Assembly: GCA_947260035.1 (NCBI GenBank) | Contig: CAMYOO010000020.1 | Span: 1 to 41,248 of the forward strand | DNA length: 41,248 bases | Source of the DNA: an uncultured delta proteobacterium | Lineage (GTDB): Bacteria; Myxococcota_A; UBA9160; JAFDET01 | Direction of reading: 5' to 3' | Shown here: in pieces, positions 22,076 to 24,476 of the stretch | How the letters are laid out: every line of letters begins with the position of its first letter | Numbering within the stretch: the first letter of the stretch is position 1 | The notes under the pieces: generated by a model | What the model saw: only the letters and a program-made list of their open reading frames with translations | Told to the model about the DNA's origin: nothing | Database searches by the model: none | Position numbers and translations under genes: made by a program

Positions 22076-22654
22076 ATGCCCGAGCCCAGCGTCAAAGGAA
22101 CACTGGTCCAGGCTGCCGTCAGCGAGCTGCGCGAGCTGGAGCAGCAAGGCAGCGTGTCCCGCGCCACACTGGAACGCGACCTCAAGCCCGACGACCTGGA
22201 GCTTCTGGATGACGACCTCCTGGTCAGCGCCTGGTACTCCATGGCCAGCTACGGCCGCATCCTCGAGGCCATCGCCGCCGCCAAGGGGCGGGACGCGGAC
22301 GGGGACTACGTCGAGGCCGGACGTCAGAGCGCACATCGCCTGGTGGAGATGGGCCTCTACCGACAGCTCGACGAGCGCACGGCGGAGCGTTGGGAGGAGC
22401 GGGTAGGCAAGCTGCTGCTCTCCGTGGCTTCGCTGCTCTGGAACTTCGGCGGCTGGGAGTGGCTCGGAATGGACGAGACGGGCTTCCGGATCCGTTTCCA
22501 GGGCGCGTCCCCGATGCCGCGCAGCTACGCGCTACGCACCCAGGGATTCGTCGAGTACCTGGCCTCGCGCGCGGCAGGCAGCCCGGTGCGGACGCAGATG
22601 CAACGAAGCGCCGACGGCAACACCCTCGACTTCCGCTGCCACAAGGCGCTCTAG
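22076..22654 (+). CDS. unknown soluble protein, about 192 aa
   Basis: I do not recognise the family with certainty. The start ATG 22076 has GAGGAG nine bases upstream; the track ORF extends 61 codons further with no support. Visible features: an opening KGTLVQAAVSELREL, then a tryptophan-rich helical middle (SAWYSMASYGRIL), and an alpha/beta tail (FVEYLASRAAGSP ... DFRCHKAL). The layout recalls small ligand-sensing domains of the V4R/heme-NO-binding type seen in deltaproteobacteria, a weak guess. No membrane segment. It precedes the DsbA-like gene by 114 bp in the same frame, separated by a TAG stop. Confidence 0.65.
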   Translation: MPEPSVKGTLVQAAVSELRELEQQGSVSRATLERDLKPDDLELLDDDLLVSAWYSMASYGRILEAIAAAKGRDADGDYVEAGRQSAHRLVEMGLYRQLDERTAERWEERVGKLLLSVASLLWNFGGWEWLGMDETGFRIRFQGASPMPRSYALRTQGFVEYLASRAAGSPVRTQMQRSADGNTLDFRCHKAL

Positions 22655-22734
22655 GCGGCGCCCAGCACCCTCGGGTCGCGGCTCGCTCGACAGCGACGAA
22701 GCGGGTCTGCTTCGCGGGGAACAGCGCCAGGGGA

Positions 22735-22760
22735 TACAATCGCCCGCCCGCACAGGGAGG
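22735..22760 (+). promoter_or_regulatory. -10 element and strong Shine-Dalgarno of the DsbA-like gene
   Basis: TACAAT (22735-22740) is a good -10 match; the -35 is weak. A transcript starting near 22747 would have a short leader containing AGGGAGG (22754-22760), eight bases before the ATC at 22769 where the protein homology begins. This arrangement supports initiation at ATC, since no ATG, GTG or TTG is in frame between the previous stop and codon 37 of the conserved domain. Confidence 0.5.
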
Positions 22761-22768
22761 CGGCCCCC

Positions 22769-23362
22769 ATCCAGATCCCCTTCTACTACGACTATGCCTG
22801 CCCCTGGGCCTACCTGGGAAGCTGCCGGGTCGAGGCCTACTTCCGCGACCTGGGCGTCGATCTGGACTTCCGCCCCGTGCGCCTGGCCGATCTGAAGGAG
22901 CCCTCGACGGGCACCGCGCCGGCCCTGGGCGAGCGCAAGAAGAAGAACTACCGCGCCGATCTGCTGCACTGGGCCGAGCTGTGCGGCGCCGAGTTTTCGC
23001 CGCGCGCCCGCGAGGCCCGCGCCGACACGCGGCTGCTGCTACAAGCCGCCCTTGTCGCCAAGGACGCCGGCCGCCTGCGCGAGTTCCACTATCCGGCGTA
23101 CCGGGCGCGCTGGGCGGAGGCCCGCGACGTATCGGATCCCGAGGTCGTATCCCAGCTGCTGGCCGGAGCGGGACTCGAGCCGGGCCCCACCCTGGAGCAG
23201 GCACGAAGCGATGCCGTGGCCGCGCGGCTGGACGCAGACACCCGCGAGGCGGTCGAGCGCGGCGTCTTCGGCGTGCCCACCGTCTTCGTGAAAGACGAGA
23301 TGTTCTGGGGCAACGATCGCTTCGAGCTGGCTCGTCACTACATCCGAAAGGCCCTCGCGTAG
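22769..23362 (+). CDS. DsbA/HCCA-isomerase-family protein, apparent ATC start
   Basis: About 197 aa of thioredoxin-fold DsbA family. The conserved N-terminal strand and active-site helix (IPFYYDYACPWAYLGS) lie upstream of the track start at GTG 22877 and must be translated for the fold to form. The motif is CPWA, so the second Cys of CxxC is Ala, which points away from disulfide exchange and toward 2-hydroxychromene-2-carboxylate isomerase-like or glutathione-dependent chemistry. The cis-Pro region GVFGVPTVFV is present. The only plausible initiation codon is ATC 22769 behind AGGGAGG. No signal peptide, so cytoplasmic. The DUF1214 gene starts 4 nt downstream. Confidence 0.82.
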   Translation: MQIPFYYDYACPWAYLGSCRVEAYFRDLGVDLDFRPVRLADLKEPSTGTAPALGERKKKNYRADLLHWAELCGAEFSPRAREARADTRLLLQAALVAKDAGRLREFHYPAYRARWAEARDVSDPEVVSQLLAGAGLEPGPTLEQARSDAVAARLDADTREAVERGVFGVPTVFVKDEMFWGNDRFELARHYIRKALA

Positions 23363-23366
23363 AACC

Positions 23367-24476
23367 ATGAGCGAAGAGACACACAACGAGGCGATTCGAC
23401 GCGTCCTGGACGGGACCACCTGGGAGGAGTTCTGCGACGGGCTCAAGGCGGCCGGCGCCGTGATCCTTTCCGAGGGTGCGCCCGATGATCCGCTCGATCG
23501 CGCCGAGGGCTGGCGCTACCTGACGCGGCTGACGCGAGGCGCGCTGGAGACCTTCGTCGAGTTCTCGGATCCGGCGGTGCCCGAGTTCCGGCGCACCGCC
23601 AGCGAGACCATCAAGATGGGCCTCGACAACCCGGACAACGTCTACCTGAACACACAGATCAAGGGGAGCTGGGACTACCGCATCCGCGGCAACCGCGGGT
23701 CGGTGCACTACCTGGGCTTCGGCTCCCAGGCCGGAAACTACGGCAGCACCGGCAGCCTGGACACCACGGGCTACCTGGAAGCCAAGGACATGGAGATCGC
23801 GCCCGACGGCAGCTTCGAGATCATCGCCAGCAGCCGCGAGCACCCGGGCAACTGGCTGCCCATGAAGCCCGAGACGCGCATGATCCAGATCCGCCAGACC
23901 CGCCTGGACCACGCCAACGAGAAGCTGGCCGAAGTGACGATCGAGCGGATCGACGCGCCCGGGCAAGCGCGGCCCGTGGATCCGGAGCGTTTGGACCGCA
24001 TGCTGATGGGCGTGGTCGCGTTCGTGCGCGGATGCTCGGGACTCTTTCACGGCTGGGCCAAGGACTTCCAGAAGCACACCAACGAGCTGCCACGCTTCGA
24101 CCCGGACACGGCCTTCGCCGCCGGCGGTGACCCCAACATCGCCTACTACCACAGCTACTGGAAGCTCGAGCCCGACGAGGCGCTGGTCATCGAAGCCGCG
24201 CCGCCGGAGTGCGACTACTGGAACTTCCAGCTCACCAATCACTGGCTCGAATCGCTGGACTACCGCAGCTTCAAGATCCACCTGAACAAGCACACCGCCG
24301 TCTACGGCGACGACGGCTCGGTGCAGGTGGTGGTGGCCCATGAGGACCCGGGCCACCCCAACTGGCTCAACACCTGCGGTCACCGTCAGGGCGGCATGTG
24401 CTGGCGCTGGATCCGCGCCAGCGAGCACCCGCAGCCCCGCACCCGGGTGGTCAAGCTGGAGAGCCTGCGTGGCTGA
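23367..24476 (+). CDS. DUF1214-domain protein
   Basis: A 369-aa protein whose C-terminal part fits DUF1214: YYHSYWKLEPDEALVIEAAPPECDYWNFQLTNHWLESLDYR, then CGHRQGGMCWRW. Such proteins recur in actinobacterial and deltaproteobacterial lipid or steroid gene clusters but their reaction is unknown. There is no signal peptide. It sits 4 nt after the DsbA-like gene and overlaps the sulfotransferase start by 8 nt, so the three form one operon, suggesting a shared substrate that ends up sulfated (inference). Confidence 0.85.
   Translation: MSEETHNEAIRRVLDGTTWEEFCDGLKAAGAVILSEGAPDDPLDRAEGWRYLTRLTRGALETFVEFSDPAVPEFRRTASETIKMGLDNPDNVYLNTQIKGSWDYRIRGNRGSVHYLGFGSQAGNYGSTGSLDTTGYLEAKDMEIAPDGSFEIIASSREHPGNWLPMKPETRMIQIRQTRLDHANEKLAEVTIERIDAPGQARPVDPERLDRMLMGVVAFVRGCSGLFHGWAKDFQKHTNELPRFDPDTAFAAGGDPNIAYYHSYWKLEPDEALVIEAAPPECDYWNFQLTNHWLESLDYRSFKIHLNKHTAVYGDDGSVQVVVAHEDPGHPNWLNTCGHRQGGMCWRWIRASEHPQPRTRVVKLESLRG

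Follow-up and report, generated by a model that had tools for sequence, protein, structure and literature searches.

Here we describe a DsbA-family gene, on the forward strand of a 41,248-nt stretch of DNA from an uncultured delta proteobacterium (the window, meaning the whole stretch analysed), that has ATC in the position of its start codon. On balance we consider it a functional gene whose start was probably changed from ATG to ATC by a single substitution and which would now be translated weakly from ATC, a reading that we prefer because purifying selection acts on the frame, which has no other defect. Our verdict is that the gene is normal apart from its start codon, which either changed in an ordinary single event or was misread in the assembly.

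Domain, frame and integrity of the gene

The gene occupies 22769..23362 (+), comprising 197 codons and a stop, and lies within a stop-to-stop ORF at 22655-23362 (+) that is preceded in frame by a TAG at 22652-22654 (+). It encodes a full-length domain of the DsbA-like proteins (PF01323, DSBA domain; E 3.5e-35, a score of 122 bits where the cut-off is 25.6, covering profile positions 1-190 of 191), with the first profile position falling on residue 40 of the stop-to-stop frame, directly after ATC 22769. A sequence search against PDB returned 2imd, a 2-hydroxychromene-2-carboxylate isomerase, as the best match (2.4e-18), ranked above DsbA oxidoreductase, kappa GST and FrnE, consistent with an HCCA-isomerase/kappa-GST-like member of the DsbA family. 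With ATC as the start, the predicted N-terminus would be (M)QIPFYYDYACPW. The motif DYACPWAYLG contains a single Cys, the putative catalytic residue, encoded by TGC at codon 11 (22799..22801, +), where all close orthologues have TGC/TGT or TGA.

The window copy contains no stop and no frameshift. Its nearest relative is a congener from the same genus (G001, C368; the same locus as JAFDET010000298.1) with ∼92% amino acid identity. Between the two, codons 2-36 differ by three synonymous changes and one non-synonymous change (dN/dS 0.09), and the remainder of the gene gives a dN/dS of about 0.18-0.19; these ratios of about 0.1-0.2 indicate that the frame is under purifying selection. Where a difference is non-synonymous, the window residue is in many cases one that is common in outgroups; K175 is an exception, as most relatives have Gly there.

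The first canonical in-frame start in the ORF is GTG 22877, which would be the expected choice of a gene caller limited to ATG, GTG and TTG. Translation of a short protein from this codon is scarcely credible: the first 36 domain residues, including the catalytic Cys, would be dropped, and codons 2-36 are under purifying selection. We rejected GTG 22877..22879 (+) as the true start on the loss of the catalytic Cys and on the bases that precede it, tcgatctggacttccgcccc, which include no Shine-Dalgarno sequence. On a practical level, if the ATC is real, such a caller would truncate the window gene and remove its catalytic residue.

Four bases past the stop of the dsbA-like gene is the ATG of a DUF1214-family gene (23367..24476, +; PF06742, 1.3e-08), which follows in the same order in the congener and is probably carried on the same transcript.

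Start signals and orthologues

The original prediction held that the domain begins well before GTG 22877, that no ATG, GTG or TTG occurs in frame back to the TAG at 22652, and that AGGGAGG lies eight bases before ATC 22769 with TACAAT further up. All of this was borne out, and the stretch 22655-22768 proved to contain no ATG, GTG or TTG in any frame. An indel joining the gene to an upstream start, which had been entertained as a possibility, was rejected on the same scan, as a single indel could reach no such start within that stretch, and on the comparison with the congener, in which the two genomes differ by a plain ATG/ATC substitution.

The Shine-Dalgarno sequence (AGGGAGG, 22754..22760, +) retains GGGAGG in the congener, and the −10-like promoter box (TACAAT, 22735..22740, +) is identical there. 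Only 1.1% of window positions are preceded by GGAGG at 4-10 nt spacing, and each of the listed orthologues has an SD-like motif ahead of its start. Ten of 22 genes have a TAnnnT box 22-50 nt 5′ of the start, whereas shuffles gave a mean of 2.4 and a maximum of 7; a strict sigma-70 scan found no full promoter, which leaves any −35 element hypothetical. Folding of the leader gave no clear signal, the Shine-Dalgarno sequence being predicted as paired in both window and congener and the start codon as open in the window. Relative to the congener, the window leader has a 3-nt insertion between the Shine-Dalgarno sequence and the start, among other ordinary differences.

Alignment of orthologues at the codon, which the original prediction had proposed as a check, drew on 21 distinct sequences, taken both from members of the same order and from MAGs named as Myxococcota, Deltaproteobacteria or Proteobacteria. 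The codon aligned with ATC 22769..22771 (+) is ATG in 11 of the 21 and GTG in four, and the other six have an ATG one codon earlier; ATC, ATT or ATA was found at the aligned codon in none of them. The congener has ATG exactly where the window has ATC. Because the orthologues, the selection on codons 2-36 and the upstream signals agree, the position of the gene start at codon 22769 is well supported by sequence comparison. The gene has two attributes of genes with a non-canonical AUN start of the infC/pcnB type: it is without a canonical in-frame start by the point where its domain begins, and it combines a Shine-Dalgarno sequence with a start position consistent with that of its orthologues. 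By the same comparison, the ATC is unique to this genome and, on parsimony, derived.

The window also has ATC at 22739-22741. At the corresponding place in the congener the TACAAT box runs into an in-frame ATG (TACAATG), such that two in-frame ATGs in the congener leader both correspond to ATC in the window. We regard this double difference as probably a coincidence, because the upstream ATG of the congener is without a Shine-Dalgarno sequence and does not recur as a start in other genomes.

Reality and use of the ATC codon

The ATC is known from one MAG of 480 contigs, of which the window is contig C20. A consensus or assembly error, whereby the organism has ATG, the C at 22771 is wrong and the gene is ordinary, is the less likely explanation but one that deserves weight: the window codon is a single base away from the ATG of the congener, the state is private to a single fragmented assembly, and comparison of the two MAGs reveals isolated indels that break reading frames, which shows that base errors do occur. 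Against this, the window copy is otherwise clean, its leader carries the other ordinary differences from the congener described above, and substitution errors in MAG consensus sequences are rare per base. In our judgement the ATC at 22769 is likely to be real, a likelihood that is shared among weak translation, selected low expression and silencing of the gene.

If the base is real, an ancestral ATG would have become ATC through one G-to-C substitution at 22771 in the window lineage, with the promoter box, the Shine-Dalgarno sequence and the reading frame all retained after the change. Initiation would still take place at ATC 22769 with initiator fMet-tRNA, and its efficiency would be low as a result of discrimination against AUC by IF3. 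We infer that the C is real and that initiation at ATC is weak; the change is probably recent, leaving the gene weakly translated.

The window genome itself provides a precedent, as its infC (L086, G000:C112) starts with ATC behind AAGGAG. ATC is therefore probably usable as a start in this organism. In relatives (L071-L088), infC begins with ATA, ATT or ATC in most of those whose 5′ end was readable, suggesting that IF3 autoregulation through a rare start is probably general in the order. Elsewhere, infC starts with ATT in E. coli and ATC in Streptomyces, and the GTC start of sigR, found in 32 of 34 Streptomyces, has been shown experimentally to be repressed by IF3 (PMC5472188). In Listeria rsbW, natural changes of ATG to ATA or ATT lowered translation but did not abolish it (PMC13068326). 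Because of these precedents (infC of the same genome, infC and sigR of Streptomyces, and rsbW of Listeria), weak initiation from ATC 22769 is plausible by analogy.

The likeness to each of these systems is partial. As in infC and pcnB, a Shine-Dalgarno sequence is followed by an AUN codon and the frame offers no canonical start; however, the rare starts of infC recur across the order, whereas the ATC of the window is private and its orthologues use ATG or GTG. Streptomyces sigR likewise shows that genes besides infC can carry a non-canonical start preceded by a Shine-Dalgarno sequence, but its GTC is conserved and its repression by IF3 is experimental (PMC5472188). Listeria rsbW is the closest parallel, with a single-base change from ATG to AUN in an otherwise intact gene, but those variants arose under selection and were measured (PMC13068326), whereas the window gene is known from sequence.

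The same comparisons bear on whether the rare codon was selected for low or regulated expression dependent on IF3, in the manner of infC or sigR, a reading that we consider improbable. The retained Shine-Dalgarno sequence and promoter box, the intact gene and the use of ATC by infC of the same genome are in its favour; however, the ATC is conserved in no orthologue, unlike the GTC of sigR (32/34 Streptomyces, PMC5472188), and unlike the AUN starts of infC, which recur across the order. The conservation of a rare start among orthologues that characterises the IF3-regulated infC/sigR class was not seen among our 21, so that a conserved function of the rare codon is disfavoured. Of the authentic rare start giving low or regulated expression in the original prediction, the position stood, on the orthologues, the selection on codons 2-36 and the upstream signals, and authenticity is likely, from a single genome; regulated expression found no comparative support, as 21 of 21 orthologues, the congener among them, have ATG or GTG at or beside the codon. 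Somewhat less improbable, yet still unlikely, is a species-specific ATC start outside infC that is translated and kept low by IF3 proofreading, so that the amount of this redox protein would follow the level of IF3.

Initiation at AUC is very poor, and a real ATC might instead silence the gene, the window copy being a recent null allele in which decay is beginning. The congener copy (L046/L005, G001:C368) lacks 44 nt following codon 134 of the orthologue, a deletion that breaks the frame and suggests that the gene may be dispensable in the genus, and a gene lost only very recently would show no other sign of it. Even so, we consider silencing improbable: the window copy has neither stop nor frameshift, its differences are mostly synonymous, and the deletion in the congener is possibly an assembly artefact. 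The next gene of the congener also differs by 17 nt, opposite window position 24227, in a manner resembling a tandem duplication. Both this difference and the 44-nt deletion may be artefacts of the congener MAG, because its assembly has other odd indels relative to the window genome.

Weak translation from ATC thus remains our preferred reading, and if real it would add one more natural case of a non-canonical start codon outside infC. Against it, no convincing further change of a start from ATG to ATC was found among ∼70 conserved ATG codons in ∼165 kb aligned to the congener, a comparison with crude detection of starts that covered part of the genome; the other odd ATC or CTG cases in this alignment resembled, by eye, internal Met codons or ORFs on the wrong strand. 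An exact pattern search of viral contigs found no second copy. More broadly, claims of rare starts from single MAGs need to be tested against orthologues, a test that here fixed the position of the start and argued against a conserved function of the rare codon.

Cysteine and selenocysteine in the family

In nine of the 21 orthologues (L025, L026, L029, L032-L035, L037/L048 and L041) the codon for Cys11 is an in-frame TGA, followed by a shared invariant CGGCAGTTGCCG that folds as a small hairpin. This putative SECIS was not recognised by Rfam. Each of 21 genomes searched for tRNA-Sec gave a match above the cut-off, that of G029 being the weakest, and SelB was above the cut-off in eight of ten, including the genome of the window. 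The presence of tRNA-Sec and SelB, and of the shared hairpin after the TGA, fits a reading of this codon as selenocysteine, which would make this a Cys/Sec family with a very early Sec, at codon 11. The window gene, with TGC rather than TGA in the motif, is a Cys homologue. HCCA isomerases normally have Ser at the place equivalent to Cys11 of the window protein. A "DsbA-like protein form 2" (PF01323, DxxUP) has been catalogued as a selenoprotein (PMC13188914), and the Sec orthologues are apparently this protein, matched by description and not by sequence. The window protein shares the PF01323 domain with this form and with 2imd, and its family has the motif D-Y-A-[C/U]-P; it differs from the selenoprotein form (PMC13188914) in having Cys instead of Sec.
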